Part shown: positions 6,447 to 39,532 of the stretch, in pieces | Position numbering within the stretch: position 1 is the first letter of the stretch | How the letters are laid out: each line of letters opens with the position of its first letter | Source of the DNA: a virus | Strand: one strand, 5' to 3' | IMG/VR virus record: IMGVR_UViG_3300009420_000029 | Location: 1 to 39,532 of that record | DNA: 39,532 nucleotides | Translations under genes and position numbers: made by a program | The notes under the pieces: generated by a model | Database searches by the model: none | Told to the model about the DNA's origin: nothing | What the model saw: only the letters and a program-made list of their open reading frames with translations

Positions 6447-6461
6447 TAGATTAATTAATAT

Positions 6462-6490
6462 AGCCTCCGCTTTGGCGGGGGTTATTTTAT
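6462..6490 (+). terminator. Hairpin terminator after the capsid gene
   Basis: A 9-bp stem (6462-6470 pairing with 6475-6483, including two G-T wobbles) closes on a TTTG tetraloop and is followed by a short T-rich run (ATTTTAT). It sits 15 bases after the capsid stop. Because the next gene is co-directional, this is probably a partial terminator that raises capsid transcript relative to tail genes. Confidence 0.65.
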
Positions 6491-6506
6491 CTTATTAAAT
6501 TATATT

Positions 6507-9483: not shown

Positions 9484-9488
9484 AAAAA

Positions 9489-9524
9489 TATACTTTTTAT
9501 GAGTTTTATGCAATATATATTATA
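9489..9524 (+). promoter_or_regulatory. Candidate phage promoter (copy 1 of a shared 36-bp motif)
   Basis: The 92-base gap before the 9576 gene contains TATACTTTTT, five variable bases, TTTTATG, one variable base and AATATATATTATA. The same elements occur with identical spacing on the minus strand at 37376-37411 (30 of 36 bases identical). The end of the motif is 51 bases before the start codon. It differs from the usual Bacteroidetes TTTG / TAnnTTTG promoter, so it may be read by the phage sigma factor. Confidence 0.6.
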
Positions 9525-22000: not shown

Positions 22001-25000
22001 AGGTAAAGGCTTAACAAAAGATTGGAATAAATACCCACCTTCAGATCAAGAATTTCAAAATTTTTATGAAGGAACTGATACTGATAATTCCCAAACTATT
22101 AGTGATAGAAAAGCAGCGTTAGCGGAAGCTGTGTCAAAGCAAATAGCTAAAGATGCTAAAGATAATTATTTTGAAGGTAAAGAAGCTGATCGTAATAAGT
22201 TTAGCATTGAGAATGACATCTCTTTTTCAACAGATAAAAAAATAGTAGAAGATGTTTCAGAATTTATACAAGGTATAAAAAATATAGCTCGTGCTGAAGT
22301 AGAAAACGCTGAGGCTTTAAATGATTATGAAGACGTAGCTAATTTTAATAAATTTATTGAAAAATTTAAAGGCTTTATAAAGCATGATAATACTAACAAG
22401 CTAGACAGAAATAACCCGGACGACGTTAAAAAAATACAGGAAGAATTATTAAAAGCGGCAGAAGATGGTAAAATACACCCATTACTGCTTATTATATCTA
22501 AATTTGGAAATTTTGGGAGAGCTGAAGTTAAAGGTTATGTAGAAAATGGGGTTTTTATTAAAAAACCTTCAAAAGTGTCAATAGATGACACTAAAAACTA
22601 TGAAACTTATTACGAACTATCAGGGCCTGTAGAGGGTTCTGTTGGCAATTACCTTAAAAGACCTGAATCTACACAAGAAGCAAAAATTATAGCTGAGAAA
22701 TTTAAAGATTCATTTTTACCTGGAAGAGGCGGTATTTTTTACGGTGTTAAAGATCCTAAATACGTTAATTTATTAAAAATAGCCACGGAAAATTATAACG
22801 GTATAGATATACCTGGGTTTAAAATAACAGATAAAGAAGGCTCAAAAAGACTTAGCTTTGGCACTAAATCAAATAATATTTTCAAAAAAAATGGTATTGA
22901 AATAGATCCAAAAGCATTTGAAGAGGTTACTGAAAAATTTAAAGAAACGGCAAAAAACAACCAGTTACTAGTTAAAGAACTTACTAAAGCTGTAAGTGCT
23001 CTAATTAAAGGTGGTGGGAATCCTTATACATTTGGATCTCTTTTACATAATTCTTACAGAGCAACCTCTGGGGCTATTAAAGCTTCTTTTGAATTTAAAG
23101 TCTACGAAGGAGGGGTTTTAGAATATGGTACTGGTACTAAATTTGGTAAATTTAATGCTAAAGGTGGAGTGCAAAATATTTTCAGAGAAGAACATAGTCC
23201 TCCTGTTAAAGTATTTGGTAGTGAACTTCTTAAAGCAGCATTAACCATAGACTCACCGTCGGGTATAGATGCACGAGTAAACGACATGTACAAGGACGCT
23301 TTTCAAAGCATAATATCCTTAAAGTCTGACCAGGCTATTAATGATACAGGCTACGGAGCTGCAATAGCAAAAGGTGGCAGAGTCGGTGAAAATTCTGGTA
23401 TTATTAGATTAGCGGAAGCTGGAGTTAGTTTAAAAAAATTATTTTATTCAAACGGTAAAAATGTACACAACTTTTTTGCAGAACAAATGGATATATCAAT
23501 GCAGGTTGAAAATGATAACGTTGCGTCCAACGAGAAGATAATCGATCATTTAAGTAACAAAGTCGAACGAGACTTACAGGGAGCTTTGCAAGTTGAAGAA
23601 AGTAATAACTCAAATCCAGAATTAAATGTTTCTGAAAAAATAGAAGCCTTTATAGACGTAATAAAAAGCGCATATAAAGGGTCTTTTGAAATTGTTAATA
23701 CTAAAGAAGACGCGGTTGCCTACTTAGTATCAAAAGGTATGGATCCTAAAAAAGCCCAGGAAACCGTTGACCGTGCAAAAGGATTTTACATTTCACGGAC
23801 TGATGGGCTTATGTATGTAAATCCAGAATTGGGTGGACTTGACACGCTGTTGCATGAAACAACCCATGCATGGACTAGAATGATTTCAGAAGTTGATCCT
23901 GAATTGTTTGATGCTATATATGAAAAATTAAAAGGCCATCCTTTATACGCTGAGGCAGTTGCAAGAATGGGCAATGATGATTATAAAAACATTGAACCTG
24001 GTTCTTTTAAGTATAAAGATGAAATTTTAGCCTACATATTAGGTGAAGAAGGTGGATCTATGTACGACCTATTTCCTGGTGATATAAAAGCAAAAAACTT
24101 AATTGATAAATTTTTCCAATATGTAGCAGAAGCTTTAGGCTTTGACCCTTCAACAAAAGATTTTGCGAGCCTATCTATTGAGCAAGTTGTTAAACTAGCT
24201 ATAAAAGATATTTCGGAAGGAAACCCAGCTTCAAACTTTAATAAACTCAAAAACAAAGCAGAAGGCAAAAGTTGGTTTGCAAAATCGGAAGATCAAATTA
24301 GTCCAAGTTCTAAAGCTGCAAAAAGTAGTACAGTGAGAGCTTTTAACGCTTTAAAATTAGCTTATAGAGAAAGTGGTGATTTGGTTGATGCTATAATTAA
24401 AAGTTATGATTCTGTAAAAAATGAAATGACTTTACAGGAGTGGGCTAAGATTGTTGCTAAAAACACTAAAGAACCTGTACCTGGTAAATCTAACGATTTA
24501 TTAATAGGTAAAAGTAAAATTAAAAAAGCCGAAAAGATTTCAGAGGCAAGTGTAGACAAAAACAAAGAAAGCGAGTTAAGTGAAAGTGAAGGTAAAAAAA
24601 TGGCTGATAAATTAAGAGCTATTATATATGGTAAAACAGGTAAACCCTCAAAATGGTTTATCCCACCTAATGCTGAAGATTTTAAAGGTTTGCTATACAC
24701 ATTCCTACCAGGAGGCAAAGCTGGAGTCGCAGCTAAAAAGTGGTTAACAGATACTTTATTAAAGCCTTATTCAAATGCTATTGCTGCACTTGATAGTGAA
24801 GTTTTAAACAAATCAAACGCTTGGAAAACGCTTTCTAAAGGTTTTGATTTTAATATAAAAATTGCAGGCACACCTTATACTTTAGGTGATGCAATTAAAA
24901 TATATAATGGTTTAAAAAACGGTCAAGATCCTAATATAGCTAAAAAGAAACACTTAGATGCTCTTATACACGCTGTAGAAAGCGATAGTAAGATTTTAAA

Positions 25001-27098: not shown

Positions 27099-28850
27099 TT
27101 ATCCGTCGCAGCTTAAACAATCTGGATCCATTGCAGCTGCCGCAATATCACCTCTTAATACGGATTCGGTACGTGTATAATATAGTGTTTTAACACCACG
27201 CTTCCATGCTTCCATATGAACAGCATTCATCCATTTAGGAGTAGCTTCAGAAGGAAAAGCCAAATTTAAACTAACAGATTGATCTATATAGTCCTGTCTA
27301 ATTCCTGCCTGCTTTACTAATTCTAATTGATTAATTTCTTTAAATGTTTTAAATACATTCTTTACTTTTTCGTAATCTTCCGCATGCTCTTGGGTAAGTC
27401 TTCCTGAGTGATCGTAAAACCATCCATCGAGTTCTTTAATGTCTTGAATGGATCCACCATCTGACATAATCTTTTCCCAAGTTTCTTTATTGTCAATTCC
27501 AATTTTTCTTAATACTTTTTTAAGTTCTTTATTCTTTCTAATAAACGTACCTTTAGCGGACTGTTCTGTGAACACGTTAGCAGCCCAAGGTTCAATACCT
27601 GGTGAAACGTTACCAGATAGTTTAGAGTTCGATACGGTTGGCGCTACAGCTCTTAAATGAGTGTTTCGCATGCCAGTACCCACACACCATAGAGGTTCAC
27701 CATATACTTCAGCTAATTTTCTTGATGCACGCTCAGTTTCAATCTTTATTTTTGAAAATATTTCCCTTGTTTTGAATTGGGCCATTAATCCTTCGAAGGC
27801 TATTCCGTTCTTTTGAAGTAAGCTGTGCCACCCCAAAACTCCTAACCCGAGTGCCCGTCCCTTGACAGCTGATCTTACAGAATTCTCGAATCCCCTTAGT
27901 CCCTTCGCTCTCTGAACAAACTCTTCCAGGACACCGTCCAGGAACCAAATCGCATCGTACACCAGGTTTGTATCCTTCCATTCGTCGTATTTTTCTAAGT
28001 TTAAAGAAGATAAACAGCAAACAAAACTATGACTTTCATCAGTATGTAATGTAATTTCGCTGCATATATTAGTCATATGAACTTTTAATCCATTCGCTTT
28101 GTAAGCCTCTGGGTTAGCTTTGTTCGTGTTGCCTTTAAAAAGGATATATGGTTCACCAGTGGCTTTGCGCTTTTGGATAAGTTTACTCCACTTTTGGCGT
28201 GCTTCTTGATCTCCTGTCTCAAGTTTTCGCATAAACTTATCGCCAATGACAGCACACTGATGTAAGTTAAGAGATTGCCTGTTGACGTCTCCTTTAGGTT
28301 CCCTAATTTCAATCCAATCGAGGAAGTCAGGGTGTTCAATATTAATATTAACTGATGCAGCTCCTCTTCTAACGGCACCTTGGTTGGTCGCGAGTATAGT
28401 TGAGTCGTAGATTTTGCAAAAAGGGACAACTCCGTCTGAAGTTCCATTACCTGTAATTCTGGCTCCTGCGGGTCTAATCATATTAATACCTACTCCTACA
28501 CCGCCGCCATGTTTAGCTAGGAGCATCATTTCTAAATTCTTTGTTCCAATATCGGCTATTGAATCTGCCACGTCGATACCAAAGCAGCTAATCGGTAACC
28601 CCCTATCAGTGCCGGTATTAGAAAGAACAGGACTAGCAAGGCAAAGCCATCCTTTCCAAATGTAGTCGAAGAATACATCTTCTAACTCTGGTTTGTATAG
28701 TCGTTTTGAGACAGCTCTGCTAACTCGCCTGTAAGCATCTTTAGGTGTTTCTTCGTCAACGAGATAGCTACCTCCAATTGTTTTCTTGTAGACTTCGGTA
28801 TCACCCCATTCCGGGTAGTCAATTCCTTTTTTCCATTCATTATTCCACAT
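27099..28850 (-). CDS. nrdA: Ribonucleotide reductase class I, large (catalytic) subunit
   Basis: This protein makes deoxyribonucleotides for phage DNA synthesis. Starting at MWNNEWKKG it has 583 residues; that ATG overlaps the upstream stop as TAATG, so I prefer it to an ATG 69 bases earlier. Redox Cys89 lies in SNTGTDRGLPISCFG. The thiyl-radical Cys and catalytic Asn and Glu are in MTNICSEITL, with the partner Cys in FVCCLSSLNLE. The C-terminus DPDCLSCDG supplies the mobile Cys pair. A GGGVGVGINMIRP segment matches the family. There is no N-terminal ATP-cone, so dATP inhibition through that domain is unlikely. The small subunit gene lies upstream with one membrane-protein gene between. Confidence 0.93.
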   Translation of the reverse strand: MWNNEWKKGIDYPEWGDTEVYKKTIGGSYLVDEETPKDAYRRVSRAVSKRLYKPELEDVFFDYIWKGWLCLASPVLSNTGTDRGLPISCFGIDVADSIADIGTKNLEMMLLAKHGGGVGVGINMIRPAGARITGNGTSDGVVPFCKIYDSTILATNQGAVRRGAASVNINIEHPDFLDWIEIREPKGDVNRQSLNLHQCAVIGDKFMRKLETGDQEARQKWSKLIQKRKATGEPYILFKGNTNKANPEAYKANGLKVHMTNICSEITLHTDESHSFVCCLSSLNLEKYDEWKDTNLVYDAIWFLDGVLEEFVQRAKGLRGFENSVRSAVKGRALGLGVLGWHSLLQKNGIAFEGLMAQFKTREIFSKIKIETERASRKLAEVYGEPLWCVGTGMRNTHLRAVAPTVSNSKLSGNVSPGIEPWAANVFTEQSAKGTFIRKNKELKKVLRKIGIDNKETWEKIMSDGGSIQDIKELDGWFYDHSGRLTQEHAEDYEKVKNVFKTFKEINQLELVKQAGIRQDYIDQSVSLNLAFPSEATPKWMNAVHMEAWKRGVKTLYYTRTESVLRGDIAAAAMDPDCLSCDG

Positions 28851-29116
28851 TATGTATTTGTTATTAAATAAATTATATATCCTACTATTACATTTACATT
28901 TATAGCAACTAAATTCCATTGCTTAGCAACGATCACTTGTGGTGTGCAAAGTATGCCTCCAATTATGTAGCTTATAGCCCCTATATTACCGTAATTCAAT
29001 ATATAAGGCCCTATCATTATGAAAGCTGTTCCCATATATCCTAAGCGACCGGACAATCGTTCGTTAACCGTTAGTCTTCTGTCTTTAACTAAGTCTTTAA
29101 GTTTAAAGTTCTTCAT
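28850..29116 (-). CDS. Small multispanning membrane protein between the RNR genes
   Basis: An 88-residue protein with a basic N-terminus (MKNFKLKDLVKDRRLTVNER) and about three hydrophobic segments (roughly 27-45, 46-62 and 67-86). A Pro-Gln pair followed by KQWNLV in the second half recalls PQ-loop or semiSWEET-like small transporters, but the match is too short to name it. The start chosen is the ATG that overlaps the nrdB stop as TGATG; an ATG 9 bases earlier is possible. Its stop overlaps the nrdA start as TAATG, so it is translated in line with both reductase subunits. A role in nucleotide or precursor uptake is conceivable but unproven. Confidence 0.65.
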   Translation of the reverse strand: MKNFKLKDLVKDRRLTVNERLSGRLGYMGTAFIMIGPYILNYGNIGAISYIIGGILCTPQVIVAKQWNLVAINVNVIVGYIIYLITNT

Positions 29117-30087
29117 CAATCCCACATATCTTCAAAATCTTCGCCTTCACCTGCTTTCGAGTAATCAGTAGGACGAACAGCAAAAAAATCAGTATGAGTG
29201 ACTCCACCCGTGAGGTGATAAAACCAGTCGAGGTTGTCTGATCCTGATTTGTCATATGCAAAGTACTGCCCGAGGTCGAAGTAACCGAGTTCTGTAAGTT
29301 TTTCATTTAATCTTTTTCTAATAAATTGTTTTAAATCATAAGCTTTAATTCCCTCTATATCACCCATCTCAAACATCTTATCAATATATGTTTCCTCAGC
29401 TACCAACATAGTTGTTGCTGCTGTTACAACGTCTTCTCTACATTCAGATAAAAGTGTTTCATCTTCTGCACACATGTGTCTAAATAATTTACAACCCATT
29501 TTACTATGCAGTGACTCATCTCTTACAGACCATTTCATCTGTTGGCCAATGCCTTTAAGCAGGTTACGAAGCTGAAAACTATATAACACAGCAAAAGCGG
29601 AATAGAGAGATACGCCTTCTGCAAATGCAGAAAAAATAGCGATAGACTTGCCAATCCCACGAGGATTAGTACCAGTGTAACTAACAAGGTTATCGAAGCG
29701 CTGCGCCGTGGCGGGCTCGTGTAAGAATGCTTCATAATCTTCTAAGCCTAATGTTTCATTTAGATAGCTGTAAGCAACAGCGTGTATTGTTTCTTGAGAA
29801 CCAAACATCATTGCCATTTGCTGTATTTCATGCTTAGGAAACCAGCCTACAACTTTCTGTGTCCAATAATCAGATACAGCACATTCTGTTTGAGCGAAAC
29901 CTAAAAGTATATTACCTACTAGATTTTTTTCTTCTTTAGTTAATTTTTCATTCCAGTCTTTAAGATCGCCAGACATTGGTATTTCAGTATGTAACCAAAA
30001 AGCTTGTGCCTGTTTTAGCCAACCCTCCGTGTAGTACTCTGGATACTCAAAGGGTTTGTAGGCTATTCTTTCATCAAATAATCCCAT
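29116..30087 (-). CDS. nrdB: Ribonucleotide reductase class I, small (radical) subunit
   Basis: The 323-residue protein houses the dimetal cofactor that starts the radical reaction in NrdA. Likely metal ligands are Glu68, Glu99, His102, Glu157, Glu191 and His194 (in QTEC, GSQETIH, AEGVS and RDESLH). A Tyr at 106 matches the radical Tyr of NrdB/NrdF. The first ligand is Glu where most class Ia and Ib proteins have Asp. The C-terminus is acidic and ends DFEDMWD, suitable for docking to the large subunit. The start ATG overlaps the preceding stop as TAATG. Glu at the first site may hint at an unusual metal or radical subclass, as in some Bacteroidetes and chlamydial enzymes; this is inference. 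Confidence 0.93.
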   Translation of the reverse strand: MGLFDERIAYKPFEYPEYYTEGWLKQAQAFWLHTEIPMSGDLKDWNEKLTKEEKNLVGNILLGFAQTECAVSDYWTQKVVGWFPKHEIQQMAMMFGSQETIHAVAYSYLNETLGLEDYEAFLHEPATAQRFDNLVSYTGTNPRGIGKSIAIFSAFAEGVSLYSAFAVLYSFQLRNLLKGIGQQMKWSVRDESLHSKMGCKLFRHMCAEDETLLSECREDVVTAATTMLVAEETYIDKMFEMGDIEGIKAYDLKQFIRKRLNEKLTELGYFDLGQYFAYDKSGSDNLDWFYHLTGGVTHTDFFAVRPTDYSKAGEGEDFEDMWD

Positions 30088-30290
30088 TAATTTTTTATTT
30101 CTTCTGGTTCTTCTTTCACCTTACTTTTCATTGTCTCCAGGGCTTGGTCGTAATCGGGGAGCTCTTTGACCAGTGTCATGGTACCAATCGCTAGATCTCT
30201 CAGATTTTGTAATTCTGTAATCATCTGTTGAACCACGTTGCCCAACGTTTCTACCCTGCTTTCTAGTTGTTTTCTTGTTGCTGTGCTCAT
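30087..30290 (-). CDS. Small coiled-coil protein, unknown
   Basis: A 67-residue hydrophilic protein predicted to be one or two helices (STATRKQLESRVETLGNVV and on to residue 50), ending in an acidic, Lys/Glu-rich tail. No domain or membrane segment is recognised. The gene starts at an ATGA overlap with the preceding micro-gene and ends at a TAATG overlap with nrdB, so it is embedded in the coupled operon. That placement, rather than its sequence, supports it being real. Confidence 0.6.
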   Translation of the reverse strand: MSTATRKQLESRVETLGNVVQQMITELQNLRDLAIGTMTLVKELPDYDQALETMKSKVKEEPEEIKN

Positions 30291-30433
30291 TCATTTATTT
30301 TTTTGCTTAATATTAAAGGACTTTCATCTACATTTGATTTTACTTCAAAATGTGTATTAAATTCATTTATAATTAAAGGTTTGTCTTTATACATTCTAGT
30401 ATAGTTAGATCTTATATATTCCTCTGCTTTCAT
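30287..30433 (-). CDS. Small protein of 48 residues, unknown
   Basis: Reads MKAEEYIRSNYTRMYKD and continues with a mixed charged/hydrophobic pattern to SKKINE. Its stop overlaps the next start as ATGA and its start lies three bases after the upstream stop. No domain is recognised. The tight packing and absence of any alternative gene in this stretch support translation. Confidence 0.5.
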   Translation of the reverse strand: MKAEEYIRSNYTRMYKDKPLIINEFNTHFEVKSNVDESPLILSKKINE

Positions 30434-30436
30434 ATC

Positions 30437-30574
30437 TTAATCTTCAATAGTTAAACATATTTCTATACAAAAGGGTAGATACAATACATGCTCTTTAAAT
30501 TTTTCTTCTATATAGGTTCTAACACCAAATAATATACCCGGATATAATCCTATACTAATTTCCCAGTTTCGCAT
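30437..30574 (-). CDS. Small protein of 45 residues, unknown
   Basis: Reads MRNWEISIGLYPGILFGVRT then a charged turn and a C-terminal strand (YLPFCIEICLTIED). The pattern of a hydrophobic beta hairpin plus a short helix looks like a folded mini-domain, and I believe similar short proteins occur in other marine phages, without a known function. It is flanked by other micro-genes in the same operon. Confidence 0.55.
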   Translation of the reverse strand: MRNWEISIGLYPGILFGVRTYIEEKFKEHVLYLPFCIEICLTIED

Positions 30575-30659
30575 CGTTTTGTTCTTTTAAATAATAATTT
30601 AACATCTTCATATGGTGAGCCACCATTTCTTTATAGTAACTACCAAGTGTAAAATCCAT
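30555..30659 (-). CDS. Micro-protein of 34 residues, tentative
   Basis: Reads MDFTLGSYYKEMVAHHMKML and continues as a Tyr/Lys-rich helix. It overlaps its neighbours by 20 bases on each side, which fits the dense packing here but is not proof. No function can be suggested. Confidence 0.4.
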   Translation of the reverse strand: MDFTLGSYYKEMVAHHMKMLNYYLKEQNDAKLGN

Positions 30660-30867
30660 GTTGTCTTCCAATTCTTTCAATTTCTTCTGAGTTAATTTTG
30701 TTATTATGCTTGGTATACTTCCTAACATCTTTATCTAATTTACGGCGTTTGTAGTGTAAAGAGGATTCTTTTTTCTTTTTTCTTTCATTATCTGAATCAT
30801 CATATCTACGTCCTTTTGATTTTGCGGCTTGTAAAGCGTTCGCGAGTCTTCCATGTTTATCATCCAT
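30640..30867 (-). CDS. Basic protein of 75 residues overlapping the nuclease gene
   Basis: The product is strongly basic (RKKKKESSLHYKRRKLDK in the middle) with a C-terminus IERIGRQHGFYTW that is unlikely to arise by chance translation. Its first 44 codons lie within the 3' end of the endonuclease gene in another frame (133 bases). It could be a true overlapping gene, or the real start may be a later non-ATG codon. Basic composition suggests nucleic-acid binding, but no domain is recognised. Confidence 0.42.
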   Translation of the reverse strand: MDDKHGRLANALQAAKSKGRRYDDSDNERKKKKESSLHYKRRKLDKDVRKYTKHNNKINSEEIERIGRQHGFYTW

Positions 30868-31211
30868 TGCTTAAATAGTTTCCATCTTAAAGGGAAGGAT
30901 TCATTTGCTCTCCCCTTGCATTCTATTATGTAATCTTTTCCTGTGAAGTCAGGTGTATACTTAATTCCCAATATTTTTTTCTCCCCTCGGTTAGTAAAAT
31001 CACCTTTCCCGTTGGCTTGTTTTTCATAAGCTTTATTTGTAAAACTAAATCCTTCGACCAACTGGAAAACTTCACCTTCATAATATTCAAATAGTTTTTC
31101 TTTTTTAAGAGCTATATATGTATACTTTTCTAATCCAGATGCAAAATTAATCCCATCAAAGGTTGTTTTCTTAGCTACAACTGGACCTCTTTTTTTGCTT
31201 CTTCGCTTCAT
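30735..31211 (-). CDS. PD-(D/E)XK nuclease, T7 endonuclease I-like resolvase
   Basis: The 158-residue protein has the order of catalytic motifs typical of small phage PD-(D/E)XK enzymes: a Glu in FASGLEKYTY (about 24-33), YTPDF (about 85-89) and IIECKGR (about 95-101), followed by WKLFKQWM. Such enzymes cut branched DNA and Holliday junctions before packaging, and can degrade host DNA. A DUF1064-type nuclease is an equivalent description. The basic N-terminus (MKRRSKKRG) fits DNA binding. It starts two bases after the stop of the MazG-like gene. Its last third overlaps a basic reading frame described separately. Confidence 0.78.
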   Translation of the reverse strand: MKRRSKKRGPVVAKKTTFDGINFASGLEKYTYIALKKEKLFEYYEGEVFQLVEGFSFTNKAYEKQANGKGDFTNRGEKKILGIKYTPDFTGKDYIIECKGRANESFPLRWKLFKQWMINMEDSRTLYKPQNQKDVDMMIQIMKEKRKKNPLYTTNAVN

Positions 31212-31213
31212 AA

Positions 31214-31558
31214 TTACATTTTATCATAAGTTACTTTAATATCACCTGGATAGATAGAAGTGGTTGTTGTACCAAATCCATCAGGTGGCCCAGGATCACT
31301 AACGTTACTGAATGTAGATTCTTCTTCAAGATAGTCTTTAAGTATCTTGTCAGCTAATACATCAGTAGTTTCATGCTTAAGCTTTTCAATATAATTACAA
31401 GCATCTAACAATTCCTCTTGTATATGATTAAGCCATTTGTGTAATGAAGGAGTATCATCGTGTAAAGTTACACCATATTTTTTATAACCTACATTGCTAC
31501 GCTCATCAAGTTTTTTGATTACTTGTTGTACTATTTGGTCTTGAGTAGTTATTTTCAT
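31214..31558 (-). CDS. MazG-like all-alpha nucleotide pyrophosphohydrolase family protein
   Basis: The 114-residue protein contains RSNVGYKKYGVTLHDDTPSL followed by HKWLNHIQEELLDACNYIEKL. This pattern belongs to a short phage family related to MazG or dUTPase-type all-alpha NTP pyrophosphatases; the EExxD cluster would bind Mg. The C-terminal ~35 residues are Gly/Pro/Thr-rich and probably flexible. Its start overlaps the stop of the GIY-YIG/MazG gene as TAATG, so two pyrophosphatase-type proteins are made from adjacent coupled genes. Likely substrates are non-canonical or host nucleotides. The family fit is moderate, the exact substrate unknown. Confidence 0.6.
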   Translation of the reverse strand: MKITTQDQIVQQVIKKLDERSNVGYKKYGVTLHDDTPSLHKWLNHIQEELLDACNYIEKLKHETTDVLADKILKDYLEEESTFSNVSDPGPPDGFGTTTTSIYPGDIKVTYDKM

Positions 31559-32355
31559 TAATTGTTTTTTACAAATGTTCCATTAATCATTTTACCTTTT
31601 CTGTTGATTATAACGTCGTACGCGGACTCAATACAATCTTCTATATGTAAACCTTCTACAGCTGCTAGGTTGGTTAAAACAACTACCATATCGCCTATAG
31701 CATCAATAATTTCAGGTCTATCGTTTTTAAGCAATGCTTGAGCTAATTCGCCAGCTTCTTCTTGAAGTTTAATATACTGAGTCTTGCTATCTCCTTTATC
31801 ATATATACCACGATCAGTAGCCCATTCTCTAATTAGTGGAAATATAAACTGTCCACCTGTTTTAGTCATTTCCTTTGTTTCTTGGAAAGGCATAGCTTGT
31901 GATAGTACTTTATTATAGACATAGCAGGTACCAGGACCAAACTGGCTACTATGTACATTAGATATAATCCACTCAATTTTAGCCTCATTGTCCAAGGCAT
32001 ACGTTCCGTACCCATTTTTTATTTTTATATTGTTTAAAAACCTTGCGTTGATTTCATCTTTGGAAATCTTAAACGTTGTTGTTGCTTCAGATGATGTGCA
32101 CTTTGTCATTTTGTTTGATTTTTTAAATAAATCTTTATATAATTGTCTATCAACTTTATAACCAAGATCTTCTTGTAGTGTCTTCTCTGCTTGTGAAGCT
32201 TCTACAATATCATTAGTCTCAAACAGTATTTCGTACTCACCTTCTTTATATCCCTGTGTTTCAATAACGCGCTTCTGTATATTAGTAGTGCATCCTATTT
32301 TAACACCTGGTATATGGTAAATTTTATACTTACCTGTTGGTATTTTTATATTCAT
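31558..32355 (-). CDS. Fusion of GIY-YIG (T5orf172-like) domain and MazG pyrophosphohydrolase
   Basis: The 265-residue chain has two recognisable ends. Residues about 7-75 read YKIYHIPGVKIGCTTNIQKR, then a Glu-containing helix (IVEASQAEKTLQ). This resembles the T5orf172/MUG113 branch of GIY-YIG nucleases, with KIG in place of YIG and the catalytic-type Arg and Glu kept. Residues about 185-265 are MazG-like: LQEEAGELAQALL then PEIIDAIGDMVVVL, matching EExxE and ExxD. The middle (about 85-180) is unassigned. MazG enzymes hydrolyse NTPs and can lower ppGpp in phage infection; GIY-YIG domains cut DNA. The fusion is unusual and lies beside thymidylate synthase and another MazG-like gene. Confidence 0.75.
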   Translation of the reverse strand: MNIKIPTGKYKIYHIPGVKIGCTTNIQKRVIETQGYKEGEYEILFETNDIVEASQAEKTLQEDLGYKVDRQLYKDLFKKSNKMTKCTSSEATTTFKISKDEINARFLNNIKIKNGYGTYALDNEAKIEWIISNVHSSQFGPGTCYVYNKVLSQAMPFQETKEMTKTGGQFIFPLIREWATDRGIYDKGDSKTQYIKLQEEAGELAQALLKNDRPEIIDAIGDMVVVLTNLAAVEGLHIEDCIESAYDVIINRKGKMINGTFVKNN

Positions 32356-32432
32356 TGTTTATTCTTTTAATTATTTTCTTGCTTTGTTCATTTAGAAACT
32401 TAGCCATAAAATTGCTTTTTGAGAACCATGAC

Positions 32433-33260
32433 TCATACTCCGACGTTGAGTTCTGCTTTGATTGCTGGGTGCGGGTCATATCCTGAAATATTTATCATTG
32501 ATTTTTTTGGTATACTTACATCTTTTTTGTCGATAATATTAAGTCCCCAATCGACGCTAACAAAAGGAAGTCTTCGAAAACTACGATCCAACTGTTGTTT
32601 AGCTTGATCGATATGATTATTGTAAAGATGACAGTCACCAAGGGAAACAAGTAATTCGCCCGGGGTATATCCAGCTCCCTTTGCAAGCATAAGTAATAAT
32701 AACCCATACATAGCAAAATCATAAGGCAGGCCGAGAAAAACATCAGCTGATCGCTGCTGCCACATAAGATCCATTTTTCCATCGTTTATATAAATTTGAA
32801 ATCCGTAATGACAAGGAGGTAAGGCCATCTCGTGTATAGCACCTGCATTCCATGCATTAACCATTAGCCTTCTAGATGAAGGATTAGATTTTATCTCACG
32901 GATTAGTTGCTTTAATTGATCAACACCGTTAAAGTTGCGCCATTGAGATCCATATACTGGACCTAATGTGCCGTCTGTTCTACCAGATCTTTCATAATCA
33001 GCATTCCAATACTTAACACCGTTATCGTTTAAGTATTTAATATCTGTTTTACCGTGCAATATCCATAATAATTCAGTTACAGCGTTGTCCCAGAATATTT
33101 TTTTTGTGGTGAGCAAAGGAAATCCTGCTGACATATCATGTCGTAGTATTCGTCCAAAGACTGATTTTGTCCCAATACCTGTTCGATCCTCTTTCTGTTT
33201 TCCACCGTAGACCAGTGATGATAATAATCCCCTATACTCATCCTGAATGTTTCTTGTCAT
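32433..33260 (-). CDS. thyA: Thymidylate synthase
   Basis: A full-length 275-residue ThyA that converts dUMP to dTMP with methylenetetrahydrofolate. The nucleophile Cys150 is in ALPPCHYGFQ, the phosphate-binding Arg pair in SSRRLMVNAWN, and the folate/dUMP-binding RSADVFLGLPYDFAMYG follows. The N-terminal DRTGIGTKSVFG and C-terminal YDPHPAIKAELNVGV are also typical. It begins inside the last 23 bases of the preceding unknown gene. Together with the reductase genes it feeds the dNTP pool of an AT-rich genome. No sign of an intron or truncation. Confidence 0.96.
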   Translation of the reverse strand: MTRNIQDEYRGLLSSLVYGGKQKEDRTGIGTKSVFGRILRHDMSAGFPLLTTKKIFWDNAVTELLWILHGKTDIKYLNDNGVKYWNADYERSGRTDGTLGPVYGSQWRNFNGVDQLKQLIREIKSNPSSRRLMVNAWNAGAIHEMALPPCHYGFQIYINDGKMDLMWQQRSADVFLGLPYDFAMYGLLLLMLAKGAGYTPGELLVSLGDCHLYNNHIDQAKQQLDRSFRRLPFVSVDWGLNIIDKKDVSIPKKSMINISGYDPHPAIKAELNVGV

Positions 33261-33525
33261 AATAATATTTCATTGTTTTAAATGTTTCTTGCCAAATATT
33301 ATCTGTTATATATACAGTTGGCGTTTTATAAACTTTTCTAAAGTTAGGCATAAACGATACTGCTATTCTCCATTCCTGTGGATACATACCTTTAGAGGTT
33401 GGTTCTGGAGATATTATTATATCATTATCTATACAAAACTTTTGCCACTTTAATTCGTCAGCGTTAGCTACAAATCCAGTGTTTAATCCTATATAACCTT
33501 TAGGTGGCTTTGACTTCCAGGCCAT
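33238..33525 (-). CDS. Hypothetical protein of 95 residues
   Basis: The chosen start (MAWKSKPPKGYIGLNTGFV) overlaps the primase-helicase stop as TAATG, the pattern used throughout the operon; an upstream ATG would add three residues. The product is a soluble alpha/beta protein with two likely central strands (EWRIAVSF, TPTVYITDN) and a C-terminal helix (WQETFKTMKYYYDKK). It is not recognised. Position between helicase-primase and thymidylate synthase suggests a DNA-metabolism accessory role only by association. Confidence 0.6.
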   Translation of the reverse strand: MAWKSKPPKGYIGLNTGFVANADELKWQKFCIDNDIIISPEPTSKGMYPQEWRIAVSFMPNFRKVYKTPTVYITDNIWQETFKTMKYYYDKKHSG

Positions 33526-35228
33526 TATTCCCAAGGTAGATTATGATCCGACGGATCTGTTACTGGCATATAGTCGCCCGATACATGGTTCCATTTAAAG
33601 TGCGCCTCGGCTTGATTCTCTCCTAAGTTTTGAAACTTAACTTTAAGAACTTTAACTTTCACAGTATTGTTACCATAATTTCTATGTACTAGTAATCCAT
33701 GATAACTAGCATCATACCATTCTCCACCACCTTTAATAGAATACATTGTTGGTTCGTCCATAGTCCCATCATCTTTCTTGTACATTTTAGTAGGGTGTGC
33801 AACAACAATAACTAGCACGTCATATTTTTTAGCGAATGTTTCTATTTGTGCCAAATATTCCATAGTAGCATCAGGTATAGACATTGCTGCTGTACCTTTT
33901 AATTTAACTTTATTAAATGGGTCTATAACTAAACATTTAATTCCTTTACGCTTAACTAATTCAGCACCTTTTTTAAGCACTGCTTCAAGATCATAGCGCT
34001 CAGACTCTATAAAGTAAAAGTTATCATTTACTACATTCCAGCAATCTTTCCATTTATCACTACCTAAGTCTTCTTGCTTAGGCATCCAGCCGCCAATTTT
34101 TCTTATTAGCTTATGGGTATGTAAAAATGTTGGTTTGTTTTCCGGTGAAGCAAAAGCTGTTTTCCAACCATATTTCATTTGGTATCCAACTGCCATTCTA
34201 TCAACAAAGTCAGACTTACCACTACTAGGCACTCCTGTGACAGTAATAAACTGTCCGGTGTAAGTACTAAATATGCTGTCAAAGTTATCAAGACCGACTT
34301 GAAAACCCGGCTTAAAGCCTTCGTGTATGAATTCTTCCAGTTCATCATTTATGTCATTTACGGTTACTACATTTTCAAGAGGTACGGCTTTTGCATTATG
34401 TATAGCATCCAAAAGAGCGTTACGCCCGTCAGCCATAAGAACACCATTAGCATCCTTATGAATATTGAAATCTGCCATCCAGCATACTTCCGCCCCAAAC
34501 CTACGTATAAGTTCTTGTTGTAGGTTTTGACCAGCTTCATCACTGTCTGTAGCGAGTATGATTTTTGATTTATCTTCAAAATATTCGATACAGTTATCAA
34601 GGTAATCAAGGTTGAGCCTATTAAGAGTAGCTCCGTTTGGTACTGATACAACGTTTTTAATTCCAACTTCATAAAGAGATAAGGCATCCATCTCTCCTTC
34701 AACAATAACACACCAGTCGTGACCAATGATATTATTGATATTATAAAATACTTTTTCTGCGCCTTTAACAAGTTTGAAATTCTTTCTGCCATCTCTATAT
34801 TTAGTATTAATTAATTGTTCATTAATAAAATAATTAAATTGTATGGTATTAACTTCTTTAGAAACTTGAGGCATCCACTCAGAACCCTCACTGACTTTCA
34901 TATCAGCAAGGGTCTTTTGTGAAATACCACGTTCTTCAAACCATTTAACAGCGCCGGTACTTAAGCTAGTATTATTTTTCCACTCGGGTAAAACATACTC
35001 TTTATCAGCACCACCTTTACGTTTAAACGTGTGTAGCTGAAAGACTTCATCACAATTCATACAGGTGCCGAGACCACGTTCCCAATCATACATAGCGCAT
35101 TTAGCTTTGCGATTTTCAGGTTTTCTATCAACTGAACACTTAGGACATATGCCCTCTTTCTTTCCAGCTTCAAGATCGTGTTGATTGAACGTGTCAATCA
35201 CAAATCCATTGATCTCATCTGTTATCAT
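33525..35228 (-). CDS. Bifunctional primase-helicase (T7 gp4/Twinkle type)
   Basis: The 567-residue protein should prime and unwind DNA at the replication fork. The zinc-binding domain has Cys pairs at 28/31 and about 56/59. The TOPRIM primase domain shows VIVEGEMDALSLYEVG (about 173-188) and ILATDSDEAGQN (about 221-232). The RecA-like helicase domain shows Walker A TGVPSSGKSD (about 331-340) and Walker B IKCLVIDPFNK, with KVKVLKVKFQNLGE near the C-terminus. Both activities appear intact. A phage with this type of enzyme usually pairs it with a family A DNA polymerase, which was not found in the window and may lie past the right edge. Confidence 0.92.
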   Translation of the reverse strand: MITDEINGFVIDTFNQHDLEAGKKEGICPKCSVDRKPENRKAKCAMYDWERGLGTCMNCDEVFQLHTFKRKGGADKEYVLPEWKNNTSLSTGAVKWFEERGISQKTLADMKVSEGSEWMPQVSKEVNTIQFNYFINEQLINTKYRDGRKNFKLVKGAEKVFYNINNIIGHDWCVIVEGEMDALSLYEVGIKNVVSVPNGATLNRLNLDYLDNCIEYFEDKSKIILATDSDEAGQNLQQELIRRFGAEVCWMADFNIHKDANGVLMADGRNALLDAIHNAKAVPLENVVTVNDINDELEEFIHEGFKPGFQVGLDNFDSIFSTYTGQFITVTGVPSSGKSDFVDRMAVGYQMKYGWKTAFASPENKPTFLHTHKLIRKIGGWMPKQEDLGSDKWKDCWNVVNDNFYFIESERYDLEAVLKKGAELVKRKGIKCLVIDPFNKVKLKGTAAMSIPDATMEYLAQIETFAKKYDVLVIVVAHPTKMYKKDDGTMDEPTMYSIKGGGEWYDASYHGLLVHRNYGNNTVKVKVLKVKFQNLGENQAEAHFKWNHVSGDYMPVTDPSDHNLPWE

Positions 35229-35252
35229 ATATCTTCTGTTTAAAGAGTTGTG

Positions 35253-35321
35253 TTAGTCTTCTATCAGTGTAACATTTCCGTTTTTATCTACGACTCTTGT
35301 TACATATTGTCCACTATCCAT
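35253..35321 (-). CDS. Micro-protein of 22 residues, tentative
   Basis: Reads MDSGQYVTRVVDKNGNVTLI and ends ED. It looks like a short beta hairpin. Its start overlaps the SSB-like stop as TAATG, the operon's usual signal, and it ends 24 bases before the primase-helicase start. It may serve to keep ribosomes moving to the next gene. Too short for any functional claim. Confidence 0.4.
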   Translation of the reverse strand: MDSGQYVTRVVDKNGNVTLIED

Positions 35322-35635
35322 TAAAATGGTAGATCTGGTTCAGAAGCAGACTGAGGGGCGTTTTGTTGTTGCTGAGGTTCACCATCTCTAGGAGCAGGTG
35401 CTACATTAGATCCGTTAGACCATACAACTTTTACATTACCTAAAAATGATTTAGGTGCCTTAGCGTCTCGCTCTTCTTTAGTTTGTTCAGTTTGTATATA
35501 ACCTGAATCTCCAAACTGTCCTAGCTCGTCATTTAGAACTATTGTAATAGGGTAGTATTTACCTTTTTTACCTTCATAAATCTTTGATTTATCTACTTTA
35601 GTTAAATCGATGTTAGCTGATATAATACTTGCCAT
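35321..35635 (-). CDS. Single-stranded DNA-binding-like protein
   Basis: The 104-residue product has an OB-fold-like beta N-terminal part (about 1-75: KIYEGKKGKYYPITIVLND, GYIQTEQTKEERD, FLGNVKVVW). A Gln/Pro/Ser-rich linker follows, and the acidic tail ends SEPDLPF, comparable to the DDDIPF-type tip that SSBs use to recruit partners. It sits next to recombination and primase genes, as SSBs often do. It would coat ssDNA during replication and annealing. Both ends of the gene use TAATG overlaps. I recall similar short SSB-like proteins in marine phages. Confidence 0.75.
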   Translation of the reverse strand: MASIISANIDLTKVDKSKIYEGKKGKYYPITIVLNDELGQFGDSGYIQTEQTKEERDAKAPKSFLGNVKVVWSNGSNVAPAPRDGEPQQQQNAPQSASEPDLPF

Positions 35636-35802
35636 TAGTAAGTTGTTAGGTTGTTAAACATTGTACGCATTTGTTTCTTCGTAGCTCCAGTAGATCTACG
35701 TAAATTATCTACAGCTTTAACGTGTGATTGATTGCTGTAAAAATTGTTCATACTTGTGGTTACTCCTGTAACGTCACAAGTTCTTTTTCTTGTTCTTGCC
35801 AT
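35635..35802 (-). CDS. Small basic protein of 55 residues, unknown
   Basis: Reads MARTRKRTCDVTGVTTSMNN and continues with a basic helical C-terminal half (VKAVDNLRRSTGATKKQMR). It is strongly positively charged, so nucleic-acid binding is plausible, but no domain is recognised. Its stop overlaps the SSB-like start as TAATG, and it starts 21 bases after the exonuclease stop. The coupling supports a real gene that may act with the SSB-like protein. Confidence 0.6.
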   Translation of the reverse strand: MARTRKRTCDVTGVTTSMNNFYSNQSHVKAVDNLRRSTGATKKQMRTMFNNLTTY

Positions 35803-35822
35803 AAAATTAAATTAGATTAGTA

Positions 35823-36554
35823 TTAAAGTGTTTTCGAAATATAATGTTGGCTAAAATCGCCATCGCCATTAACAAAGTAGTCTTCATAGACTTGTACTGC
35901 ACTTGATACTTTATTCATACCCGATTGAATAAACTTATCACTGCAATCAAACAAACCTAACTGATGAGTCTTCTTGTCAATAACTATAAAAACTAAATCG
36001 TAACCAAACATTTTTGAATAAATATATGCTTGACTATCGTAATTAAAACGATAAGCGGAATTAGTAAATTTATTAATGTCACCTGTTGTTTTTAAATCTA
36101 TAACCAGTTGGTGAGTATGGTTAACGATATCAGCCTTACCTTTCCACGTCATGCCCTCAAGTTCTACTAAGCCAGGTACTTCATACTCAACGTTACCTTC
36201 TTGTATAAGATCTTGAAACAATTCATTCTCTAATACAATTTCTCGCATTAACTGTATATCGTCCGCTTCTTTTTCTAAAAGACAGATGTCGCTACCTGCA
36301 ATTTCTTTGTAAACTTTTGTGTTACGTGTTGATGCCTTAACTATCTTGTACTTGTCAAGCTTATGAGGCTCGAGGATGCATGTGTGAAAGTAACCTCCAA
36401 TAATCATAGGTGTTGTAGGAGGCGACTGCTTCTTGAAATCAAGAGGATTATTTAACAACGCCATGATGTCACTGTTACTTAAATAGGTTTTACCGAATTC
36501 TCCATAATAATGATCATCATCACGTAGCTTATCTAATATCTCTTGTTTATCCAT
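35823..36554 (-). CDS. PD-(D/E)XK exonuclease (RecE/Cas4-like) of the recombination pair
   Basis: The 243-residue protein shows the motif series of phage recombination exonucleases: a His in IGGYFHTCILEP (about 52-63), WKGKADIV with the first Asp, LVIDLKTTG with the Asp-x-Lys pair, and YDSQAYIYS with the Gln and Tyr of motif IV. Such enzymes chew one strand of a duplex end to leave ssDNA. The adjacent ERF annealing protein completes the pair: the two genes overlap by 8 bases. The early PLDFKKQSPPTTPMIIGGY also resembles this family. Function is well supported; polarity and partners are not known. Confidence 0.82.
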   Translation of the reverse strand: MDKQEILDKLRDDDHYYGEFGKTYLSNSDIMALLNNPLDFKKQSPPTTPMIIGGYFHTCILEPHKLDKYKIVKASTRNTKVYKEIAGSDICLLEKEADDIQLMREIVLENELFQDLIQEGNVEYEVPGLVELEGMTWKGKADIVNHTHQLVIDLKTTGDINKFTNSAYRFNYDSQAYIYSKMFGYDLVFIVIDKKTHQLGLFDCSDKFIQSGMNKVSSAVQVYEDYFVNGDGDFSQHYISKTL

Positions 36555-37116
36555 TCTTTAATTTATTTAATATATCAGCACTCATTAAGTATGTTTGCTG
36601 TAATGTTTCTATTTTACCACCATTAGCTAAAAACTTTTTAGCTTTGTCAATGTTAGCATCAGTAATTTCTGGTTTTGTTTTTGCAAAAGCATTATTGCTT
36701 CCTGCTATTGTTTTATTGATAGCACCTTTACCGTGACTATTAGTAGCATCCGCATCTGCAGTGTCATCAATTAATAGTAAATTTCCCAAAGCATATTTCT
36801 TGCCGTAAGAAGAAGCACTACCGAATTTCTGTGCCATTTGCATACCCTTTTGATCAAAATCAACTCCTACTATTGCGGCAGCAACTTCGTGCTCTCCACT
36901 CTCAGTACATACAATAGCAGCGGACGATTGCAGAACTCCATCTCCTAGCCATGTTTCGTTGACAGTGAAGTAAACATTGTACTCAATGTTATAAGGTTTC
37001 AATGCTTCCAGTATATCTTCCGCAGAACGAAAATTATACTTACCAAAGTTATTAAAACGAGACTTCTTCGCTTTAAACTTTGATTGGATTAAACTTAATT
37101 TTTCTTTTATATTCAT
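36547..37116 (-). CDS. erf: ERF-family single-strand annealing recombinase
   Basis: The 189-residue product belongs to the ERF superfamily by FNNFGKYNFRSAEDILEAL near the N-terminus and QKFGSASSYGKKYALGNLLL then IDDTADADA (about 100-130). ERF proteins anneal complementary single strands and promote phage recombination and genome circularisation. I chose the ATG that overlaps the upstream stop as ATGA, giving MNIKEKLSL; an ATG 21 bases earlier would add seven residues. The C-terminal ~45 residues form a separate helical piece typical of partner-binding tails in this family. It is paired with the exonuclease just downstream. Confidence 0.88.
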   Translation of the reverse strand: MNIKEKLSLIQSKFKAKKSRFNNFGKYNFRSAEDILEALKPYNIEYNVYFTVNETWLGDGVLQSSAAIVCTESGEHEVAAAIVGVDFDQKGMQMAQKFGSASSYGKKYALGNLLLIDDTADADATNSHGKGAINKTIAGSNNAFAKTKPEITDANIDKAKKFLANGGKIETLQQTYLMSADILNKLKNG

Positions 37117-37364
37117 ATGGTATTTAATTTGTGCCAATCCTTATTGGCGAGTTTAATTGTTCTTGTACCGTAAGACTTTGTTTTAGTATTATAGTACGAA
37201 TTGTGATAGTCTTCTTCAACCTTTATGTTTAAGGTTTTAATGTCCGAAGGACTATCTTTAGGTTCAATGTTATAGTAACCTAAGCTCTCAGTTGTGTTGG
37301 TTGCATCGCCTCTATCTATAGAGTCATCTTCGATGTCGTAGTCTACATTTGTATGTGTATTCAT
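37113..37364 (-). CDS. Acidic hypothetical protein of 83 residues
   Basis: The product is hydrophilic, with an acidic, Asn/Thr-rich N-terminal half (VDYDIEDDSIDRGDATNTTE) and a more basic C-terminal half (TKSYGTRTIKLANKDWHKLN). No domain is recognised. It is the first gene after a promoter-like motif that ends 12 bases before its start codon, so its message would have a very short leader. It is translationally coupled to the ERF gene by an ATGA overlap. Being the first product of the recombination block, it could be regulatory or an inhibitor of a host function, but nothing in the sequence proves this. Confidence 0.6.
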   Translation of the reverse strand: MNTHTNVDYDIEDDSIDRGDATNTTESLGYYNIEPKDSPSDIKTLNIKVEEDYHNSYYNTKTKSYGTRTIKLANKDWHKLNTI

Positions 37365-37375
37365 AAGTATTTAGT

Positions 37376-37411
37376 TATAATATATATTACATAAAAAAAG
37401 GAAAAAGTATA
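37376..37411 (-). promoter_or_regulatory. Candidate phage promoter (copy 2 of the shared 36-bp motif)
   Basis: Read on the minus strand this is TATACTTTTT, five variable bases, TTTTATG, one variable base, AATATATATTATA, the same as at 9489-9524 on the plus strand. It fills the only clear gap in this part of the operon, directly after the sigma-factor stop, and ends 12 bases before the next start codon. It would start transcription of the recombination and replication genes. Confidence 0.6.
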
Positions 37412-38143
37412 CTAATTCTCCAAGTATTTTTCAATTATTTCTTTAACATGTGGTTGTGCCATTTTTTTCAAAGCTATTGCTTTAATTTTTTTAACCCATA
37501 TATCAGATCTATGAAAGCGTTCAGCTATTTTACTAACAGATGCACGTTTATCATAAGGCTCATCTATACCAAAATAAGCACATAAAACTTGCTTCTCTTG
37601 GTTCTTTAATTCATTGTCCATAACTTGATGCAAGAAATCGTTTAGTAGTTCTTGATCGTAGCTATAAGGTTCATCGGCAACGTCTAAATAATACTGATTA
37701 AAAAATGATGAAAATGTTTGTGTTAAAAAAATATCTGTTTGATAGTTATTATCGTATTTACCGCCGTGTGCGTCCCCGTGTGGGCTTGTAGTGTAATAAG
37801 CCTCAGGAATCCTAATAGTGTCTCTATCACGAGCTATGGCTCTTCTAATTCCGTTCTTGATGTTCAATTTTAAATAGTTTGTAATTATACCGGGTTTTTC
37901 TTCTTCTGTTCTAGAATTTATAAGTTCCCAATCTAACTTATTCCATGCTTTATAAAAAGACACATAACCTTCCTGAATTAAATCAGTAAGGTCAAGTACC
38001 CCTATCCTCGGATAAGATCTTTCAAATATGTTTGCTAATGACTTAGGCCACTCTATATAAGGTGCCTTTATCGCATCAATTCTTTCATATATATTAAGAC
38101 TTCTCAAATGCTGTTTGTATGTTGAATGGCTGTACCACTTCAT
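37412..38143 (-). CDS. Phage-encoded sigma-70-family RNA polymerase sigma factor
   Basis: The 243-residue protein has a region 2-like core at about 48-110 (VLDLTDLIQEGYVSFYKAWN, then YLKLNIKNGIRRAIARDRDT, the helix that contacts polymerase and the -10 element). A region 4 helix-turn-helix follows at about 180-235 (KNQEKQVLCAYFGIDEPYDK, then ASVSKIAERFHRSDIWVKKI). The linker between them is Tyr/Asp-rich and lacks a clear region 3. It should direct host RNA polymerase to phage promoters. The nearby 36-bp motif and its copy before the tail genes are candidate targets. It starts at an ATGA overlap with the gene before it. Confidence 0.85.
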   Translation of the reverse strand: MKWYSHSTYKQHLRSLNIYERIDAIKAPYIEWPKSLANIFERSYPRIGVLDLTDLIQEGYVSFYKAWNKLDWELINSRTEEEKPGIITNYLKLNIKNGIRRAIARDRDTIRIPEAYYTTSPHGDAHGGKYDNNYQTDIFLTQTFSSFFNQYYLDVADEPYSYDQELLNDFLHQVMDNELKNQEKQVLCAYFGIDEPYDKRASVSKIAERFHRSDIWVKKIKAIALKKMAQPHVKEIIEKYLEN

Positions 38144-38352
38144 ATATCTAATATTTTTAATCTTCTACTGTATTTTTTAATAAGCTTTGCCTTTTCTTTT
38201 AAAAGCTTAATAGGTATTCTGTTCTTTTGTGTACCGATTAATACTTCATCAATAACTTCAGATCTTAATTCCATTATTCTACGAAAAAGATAAGACTTAT
38301 GATCTCGTTTTCGAGTGCAATAAAGTTTTTGGTTTCCTATTTTTATTATCAT
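38140..38352 (-). CDS. Small basic protein of 70 residues, unknown
   Basis: The product is very basic, with KLYCTRKRDHKSYLFRRIME near the start and KLLKEKAKLIKKYSRRLKIL at the end, mostly helical by appearance. No known domain is recognised, though the charge suggests binding to nucleic acid or to acidic partners such as RNA polymerase. Its stop overlaps the sigma-factor start (ATGA), so the two are co-translated and may act together. Confidence 0.55.
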   Translation of the reverse strand: MIIKIGNQKLYCTRKRDHKSYLFRRIMELRSEVIDEVLIGTQKNRIPIKLLKEKAKLIKKYSRRLKILDI

Positions 38353-39171: not shown

Positions 39172-39327
39172 TTATTTAGTTAAATCATATAAATCCCAAT
39201 GATCAAGATCTGGATACTCCTCATCGGCTTTATCATAACACACTTGACATATTTGGAAAGTGTAGTTGCACATATCATCTATATCTTTAGTGATTTTGCA
39301 GGCTTTACATAACATTTTATTATTCAT
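39172..39327 (-). CDS. 51-residue zinc-ribbon protein
   Basis: Two Cys pairs (MLCKACK near residue 8 and ICQVCY near 29) suggest one treble-clef or zinc-ribbon site, followed by an acidic tail (ADEEYPDLDHWDLYD). The start at 39327 lies within the end of the upstream ligase-like gene (8-base overlap); an earlier ATG in the same frame at 39366 would run deep into that gene and is less likely. Function unknown; small phage zinc proteins often bind host polymerase or nucleases. Confidence 0.6.
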   Translation of the reverse strand: MNNKMLCKACKITKDIDDMCNYTFQICQVCYDKADEEYPDLDHWDLYDLTK

Positions 39328-39532
39328 AACTACGCATTGCTTTAGCTCGAGGAAAACGATATGCACCGGATGGTGTACGTTCGAAGAACTCGAATGTTAA
39401 TGGTTGACCGACATAACTTTCGCGAGCAGACCAGATTAATTGTCGCTGAGGTATAGTTAGTGTAGGCCAAGGTACTTCGACTACTCGATTGTCTGAATCA
39501 ACACCGAGGAACTTACCAAGACCGCTTTTGAA
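39320..39532 (-). CDS. Probable ATP-dependent DNA ligase, C-terminal OB fold (partial at right edge)
   Basis: The frame is open to the right window end, so only the last 70 residues are seen. GKFLGVDSDNRVVEV, then QLIWSARESYVGQPLTFEFF and GAYRFPRAKAMRSYE line up with the OB-fold end of T7-type ligases, where a Glu-Thr-x-x-Gly-x-x-R-x-P pattern precedes the final basic residues. The enzyme would seal nicks in phage DNA and fits the replication genes downstream. GC content (about 45%) is higher than in the following genes. The nucleotidyltransferase domain with the catalytic Lys must lie outside, so the call is provisional. Confidence 0.6.
   Translation of the reverse strand, partial: FKSGLGKFLGVDSDNRVVEVPWPTLTIPQRQLIWSARESYVGQPLTFEFFERTPSGAYRFPRAKAMRSYE

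Follow-up and report, generated by a model that had tools for sequence, protein, structure and literature searches.

Background

Two podoviruses, phiEco32 and 7-11, provide the closest described systems to the one reported here. In each of them a phage sigma factor (gp36 and SaPh711_gp47, respectively) directs the host RNA polymerase, according to the passages of PMC8948821 and PMC4331800 drawn on here. The same passages describe a late arm and an early/middle arm that diverge, host-type early promoters upstream with phage promoters serving the middle and late genes, and the retention of promoter positions, not promoter sequences, between these related phages with unrelated sigmas. Experiments showed that the two sigmas recognise different promoters at comparable places in their genomes (PMC8948821, in the text drawn on here), and for 7-11 the promoters mapped in this way are unlike the motif that an earlier genome-based prediction had given (PMC4331800, likewise in part). 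The portion of PMC8948821 used here also states that a gp79-like inhibitor of host transcription is absent from 7-11, and its discussion predicts hybrids, or further pairs of sigma gene and promoter, in related phages. In addition, the relevant part of PMC6487183 mentions a sigma factor, without detail, in marine viral genomic islands. A preliminary description of the DNA studied here held that phage sigma factors outside the T4 and SPO1 groups are little studied, which overlooks these podoviral sigmas with their experimentally mapped promoters (PMC8948821, as far as its cited sections go); a podoviral sigma is therefore not new in itself, because phiEco32 and 7-11 use a similar strategy.

The DNA analysed is a record of 39,532 bases from an uncultured marine virus of bacteria, and we refer to this whole stretch as the window. 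As in phiEco32 and 7-11 (PMC8948821 and PMC4331800, in part), a phage sigma is predicted to direct the host polymerase, the late and the early/middle arms diverge, the early-type and phage-type promoters are arranged in the same manner (here as layout only), and related phages with unrelated sigmas keep the positions of their promoters and not the sequences. It differs in that phiEco32 gp36 belongs to PHROG 1740 (1.9e-45) whereas the window sigma belongs to PHROG 351, in that the promoters tAATGTAtA and GTAAtg-(16)-aCTA, as given in those sources, are unlike the motifs L and L2 described below, and in that the host here is presumably a member of Bacteroidota. Among open-licence papers on sigma factors of Bacteroidota phages, podoviruses, Cellulophaga, Flavobacterium and crAss phages, and on marine late promoters, we found no description of this phage family.

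Results and discussion

Gene arms of the phage and relatives of the sigma gene

Since the window has no end repeats, it is probably a fragment, and related contigs reach up to 68 kb, so that the small phage of the preliminary description is not borne out by a 39.5-kb piece of this kind. Gene order and gene families define a late arm (161-26831, + strand) that includes the terminase, the portal, the structural genes and a 2597-aa protein and is predicted to be the late transcription unit. Reading leftward from the right end, the other arm carries Nudix, g70, sigma, g83, Erf, exonuclease, primase/helicase, ThyA, MazG, Holliday junction resolvase and RNR, and the genes from g83 to RNR (27099-37364, - strand) form a predicted middle transcription unit. 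The sigma gene occupies exactly 37412-38143 (- strand), begins with ATG and encodes 243 aa; as had been described, it stands upstream of the recombination genes, with Erf and the exonuclease following in the same direction.

Close relatives of the sigma are present in thirteen IMG/VR contigs with 59-94% identity, and we call this group type A. Twelve of the contigs were obtained nearly whole, and each of the 12 has its sigma gene flanked by the same genes, apart from g70, which is absent in four. In a named phage collection that contains phiEco32, the window sigma has no match at 1e-3 (tblastn), and the family profile does not find a sigma in Maribacter phage Panino, ctfjg026 or elemoA_1-5B, which are portal relatives. 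Compared with the relative G001, 52 of 73 base differences in the sigma gene fall on codon position 3, and the gene is, as judged against this relative, under apparent purifying selection.

The sigma protein

The assignment as a sigma-70-type protein, made previously from the letters alone, is upheld by profile and structure comparison, and both region 2 and region 4 are detected. The sole strong PHROG match is to family 351, 'RNA polymerase sigma factor', at 1.9e-12. Pfam Sigma70_r4 scores 22.8 bits (6.5e-5), just missing its gathering cut-off of 24.1, and Sigma70_r2 scores 16.5 bits (0.0074), below its cut-off of 24; at E<=0.1, r4 is found in all 14 members of the sigma family and r2 in 9 of the 14, and neither region 1.1 nor region 3 matches the window sigma at E<=1. 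In a PDB search with a profile of eight relatives, SigA is the best match (3.8e-9), and residues 26-114 align to it, as do residues 163-241, which reach the SigA C-terminus. With 21 sequences in the profile SigA is at 2.4e-9, and the PDB sequences at E<=1e-3 (47 of 47) are all named RpoD, SigA, SigA1, SigB, HrdB or principal sigma. From the SigA profile alignment and the fold, region 2 up to the start of region 3.0 is placed at residues 26-113 (37805-38068, - strand), ending with the TIRIP stretch that marks the opening of region 3.0; region 4 with its helix-turn-helix is placed in the same manner at residues 164-241 (37421-37654, - strand).

The structure model built from 21 sequences has a pLDDT of 65.7 (an earlier one from 14 sequences was poorer, at 61), and in ten-residue blocks its region 2 is mostly at 70-86 and its region 4 mostly at 81-91, with residues 109-163 between the domains under 50. 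The region 2 helices and the region 4 helix-turn-helix, on whose presence the earlier assignment had been made to depend, are both in the predicted structure. The top rows of VIA-align for the model are E. coli sigma70 and SigA with Z about 10-11, and, with regard to the ECF sigma factors, the N-terminal domain of SigE is also in the fold list, at Z 10.1 and tied with other entries. Domain 2 (residues 26-108) fits with an rmsd of 1.7 A over 69 residues and region 4 (model residues 166-239) fits SigmaA with 1.4 A over 71 residues; over the whole chain the rmsd exceeds 20 A, because the model does not fix the arrangement of the domains. By these comparisons the window sigma is RpoD-like in sequence and probably closest to the housekeeping SigA/RpoD, the group 1/2 sigma-70 proteins that give both the best sequence and the best fold matches and with which its region 4 is collinear to the C-terminus. 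It is nevertheless not a primary (group 1) sigma, and differs from SigA/RpoD in having only 243 aa, in lacking the Pfam regions 1.1 and 3, in the low-confidence linker 109-163 and in its own predicted promoter type.

Motif L behind the sigma gene and at other units

Two copies of a bipartite motif seen in upstream regions of the window were generalised to motif L, RTATAC-N12-TTATGYAATATATATTATA, with 25 scored positions, whose parts are a GTATAC box, a 12-base spacer and a TTATGYAATATA box. Copy 1, GTATAC-N12-TTATGTAATATATATTATA at 37376-37412 (- strand), is an exact match and shares its first base with the end of the sigma stop codon; it is the predicted promoter of g83, Erf, the exonuclease and the genes behind, and the ATG of g83 (37113-37364, - strand), the first gene after it, is 11 bases past the motif. 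Copy 2, ATATAC-N12-TTATGCAATATATATTATA at 9488-9524 (+ strand), is the predicted late promoter upstream of the structural gene g8 (9576-12047). The preliminary description was thus right in pointing to a promoter-like motif beside the sigma gene, and missed its recurrence at g8 and at the head of the late arm as well as its change with the type of sigma.

Within the window, the 19-base 3' block of L gives three matches at <=3 mismatches, one being an overlapping reverse-strand echo, compared with a mean of 0.37 in 100 shuffles, none of which reaches 3. Over the 673,571 bases of the window and 12 relatives, the full motif gives 21 matches at <=3 of 25 mismatches, ten of them exact, and ten dinucleotide shuffles of the same bases give 0 at <=4 mismatches; an exact search with an over-tight version of the motif returned no match. 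Each of the 14 type-A contigs checked has L behind its sigma gene (13 contigs and the short contig L012). At this site the invariant columns concentrate in the two boxes, with 4 of 6 in the hexamer and 15 of 19 in the block (19 of 25 together), against 2 of 12 in the spacer and 1 of 25 in the following bases (3 of 37 together).

A search of 2.9 million viral contigs (viral_contigs) with the exact 3' block returns 34 matches, and 27 of them have TATAC at exactly 12 nt. All 27 belong to this phage family, and they are located after sigma (4), before g8 (11) or at the late head (12). The other seven have no TATAC within 40 bases upstream, and two of these are from sigma type C described below (G029 and a contig of identical sequence). 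Upstream of g8 the motif is carried by the window, by G003 and G006 and, from the motif search, by 9 more contigs, whereas 9 of the 12 type-A relatives lack it there. L heads the late arm in all five type-A contigs whose control region is seen; in G012 the initial 1,040 bases contain no L, and this contig may begin after the late head. Three related cultured or complete records that have no sigma show neither L nor motif E at <=5 mismatches, one of them being covered to 50 of 60 kb.

Motif E upstream of the sigma gene

The window ends before a second motif region, which is seen upstream of sigma in the relatives. There, motif E, ATACGTTACAAA-N12-GTGATAATATAA, is repeated in tandem along the stretch from the late-arm head to the sigma gene and is oriented toward sigma; G001 has seven such copies and G002 has nine. 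At the late-arm head, E and L are arranged back to back. At <=3 mismatches, 35 matches are found in 12 type-A contigs and 19 in seven contigs of type B (see below), so that the motif is common to both types, and shuffles give 0 at <=4 mismatches. The motif often runs on to TATAAnTG; among 47 sites, 38 have the T and 35 the G of the last two positions. The -7 box of flavobacterial sigmaA is TAnnTTTG (PMC9723704, in the part drawn on), and the TATAAnTG ending has a partial likeness to it in the shared TA and TG; L and L2 differ from such promoters in having no TTTG box. Early-type promoters before sigma together with phage-type promoters at the middle and late units are found, as layout only, in G001, G002, G004, G005 and G006. 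As a separate observation, two type-B contigs have an E motif also downstream of sigma, between sigma and Erf (G042 near 56904 and G052 near 43519).

Sigma types B and C and the joint change of the motif

With the sigma profile, a divergent sigma was found in 6 of 19 contigs that E or the 3' block had picked out, and in 4 of 10 that L2 had picked out. Among these ten divergent sigmas, eight are of type B (one partial, G053) and two of type C (G029 and G057), and L175 provides a ninth type B. The type-B sigma lacks the IRRAI...TIRIP stretch of type A. Compared with the window, the type-A contigs G007-G012 have 59-65% identity in sigma and 71-75% in the primase/helicase, and seven type-B contigs have 24-31% in sigma and 75-79% in the primase/helicase; the low identity of the type-B sigma is, on these sequence comparisons, not explained by overall genome divergence.

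Behind the type-B sigma there is a different motif, L2, GGTCCC-N12-TTGCACTATAWTATT, whose layout is like that of L (hexamer, N12 and box, with 18 bases to the TATAAT-like hexamer). It is present in 9 of 9 (G037, G041, G042, G044, G045, G052, G053, G055 and L175), with 4 mismatches in G042 and 3 in G052, and again at the late head in all three type-B contigs where the place is seen (G037, G052 and G055). L2 is also at the late head of G047, G049 and G056, in which no sigma is found; the contigs G049 and G056 stop soon after the late head and G047 starts inside Erf. Overall, the seven type-B contigs contain nine L2 matches at <=3 mismatches, compared with 0 in ten shuffles, and no L at the same threshold; conversely, type A has no L2 at <=3 mismatches, and its two 4-mismatch matches (G004 and G005) are at other places. 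The change behind sigma could be mere linkage because the motif adjoins the sigma gene. The late head is the only compared site distant from that gene, and there L is found in 5 of 5 type-A against 0 of 3 type-B contigs (Fisher 0.018, phylogeny ignored). The motif thus changes jointly with the sigma between types A and B.

The two type-C genomes have a -10-like block, GTAATATATATAATA, behind sigma, which is like L without GTATAC, and no -35 element is definable from two genomes. In G057, whose type-C sigma is 28% identical to that of the window, the late arm is nonetheless headed by L2, and the late head of G029 has neither L nor L2; a second sigma was found in neither genome. Sigma type and late-head promoter therefore do not match in every genome, G057 being the one that breaks the pattern. 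L175 (NZHE01000007.1) combines a type-B sigma and L2 with a primase/helicase that is closest to type A (95.5%, vs 91.5% to type B).

We put at roughly even chances the view that in this uncultured marine podovirus family the sigma gene and its adjacent promoter form a swappable cassette, which would be passed between phages whose genomes are otherwise alike, with the distant late promoters rebuilt to match, and that at least three types of sigma exist, each with a promoter code of its own. If so, the mosaic L175 and the mismatched late head of G057 would be snapshots of such exchanges. Since the pairs of sigma and promoter stand on a nearly constant genome background, their joint change can be tested directly with a handful of proteins and short DNA templates. 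If the host is right, such separate pairs from phages of Bacteroidota would also be useful as expression tools.

Proposed transcription programme

From the above we propose a transcription programme for phages known only from metagenomes. The phage sigma probably attaches to the core RNA polymerase of the host and guides it to the bipartite L promoters of the phage. In the order that we infer, the host holoenzyme would first read the tandem early promoters E upstream of the sigma gene, and the sigma made from these transcripts would switch the polymerase from E to L. The L copy directly behind sigma would then serve the middle genes for recombination, replication and nucleotide metabolism, and the copies at the late-arm head and before g8 would serve the late genes. 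Because the L-type motif changes with the sigma type and E stays constant, the sigma most likely redirects the polymerase from E to L; that it engages the core enzyme of the host, that the promoters are active, that L is read by the window sigma itself and that the units are switched on in this order are, in our judgement, likewise the most likely reading of the sequences.

It is improbable that the sigma reads E, with L being left to the host polymerase and another phage activator. E is indeed also bipartite and of sigma type, its TTACAA and TAATAT being separated by 17 bases, and it outnumbers L; neither motif contains a match to TAnnTTTG, the flavobacterial -7 box (PMC9723704, in part). However, E is unchanged between types A and B though their sigmas share so little, its location upstream of the sigma gene would make the sigma necessary before it is made, it is L that changes with the sigma type, and the frequent TATAAnTG extension gives E the TA and TG of the host box. 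The directional character of L, its fixed two-box spacing and its location on the 5' side of transcription units, as well as the replacement motif of the same layout at the same places in type B, make it quite improbable that L is instead an operator, a processing site or a replication element kept for another DNA-binding protein, as might be suggested by its few copies and by the palindromic TAATATATATTA and GTATAC.

The redirection of the polymerase by an active sigma may be weighed in the same way against a degenerate or repurposed one, such as an anti-host factor that titrates core polymerase and has no promoter recognition of its own. The Pfam scores under the gathering cut-offs and the low predicted confidence of residues 109-163 agree with that reading, which is nonetheless highly improbable given the strongly predicted region 4 helix-turn-helix aligned to SigA through the C-terminus, the conserved position and selection, and the joint change with L/L2. 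The gene g70 (38140-38352, - strand) encodes a 70-aa basic protein, and its stop overlaps the sigma start by 4 bases, as g70 overlaps it in 8 of the 12 relatives too; the preliminary description took a coupling to this protein to suggest a two-part transcription switch. Homologues of g70 in several type-B contigs, besides those in the window and eight type-A relatives, would fit an obligate switch of sigma and g70, yet none is found in G008, G009, G010, G012, G042 or G029, the first four having a different 33-aa basic ORF in its place, and g70 itself has no phage family match and only a weak, chance-like Pfam match. The suggestion is thus not borne out and an obligate switch seems a slim prospect; because g70 is missing in four type-A relatives, it is a passenger or helper at most.

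A phage RNA polymerase in place of a sigma switch was also considered and rejected. No polymerase is among the families listed for 35 ORFs of G005 and 26 ORFs of G001 outside the window-like part, where the ORFs were chosen by length (43 and 34) and overlapping or wrong-strand ones were dropped by hand, so that small or odd genes could be missed, and where the families listed for G005 are 25 of 28 PHROG. The 2597-aa protein is likewise without a polymerase family.

Host and origin

The host is likely a member of Bacteroidota, on the basis of the portal, whose relatives occur in phages of flavobacteria (87 records, each below 60% identity), and of the scarcity of Shine-Dalgarno-like sequences (1 of 29 genes, as a raw count). 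An origin of the window from a host genome was rejected, as peptide patterns find no relative in genome_contigs. The single E-motif match in genome_contigs is L175, which derives from this phage family and is filed in a MAG under the label Rickettsiales; the match being a phage fragment, no host can be read from that label. The presence of such a mosaic under a Rickettsiales MAG is in itself a question of MAG binning.

Other features of the gene content

In the late arm, a GC-rich hairpin followed by T's lies behind the putative major capsid gene (6447-6506, + strand) and is terminator-like by eye. The structural protein at 12065-15265 (+ strand) matches the Crassvirus muzzle C-terminal domain PF25729 at 1.2e-7, above the cut-off, which provides a link to crAss-like tails. 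The 2597-aa protein at the end of the arm (19038-26831, + strand) has no convincing Pfam family and a weak PHROG match of unknown function. In the other arm, the MazG-type protein (31558-32355, - strand) has an N-terminal GIY-YIG-like stretch (T5orf172 1.4e-4, MUG113 0.0088), and the contig end cuts off a C-terminal piece of an ATP-dependent DNA ligase (39323-39532, - strand), the full gene of which is located upstream of sigma in G001. In addition, G005 (L040, L041) and G001 (L027, L029) encode chaperonins of GroEL/GroES type and an M15 peptidase in that portion of the genome which the window lacks.
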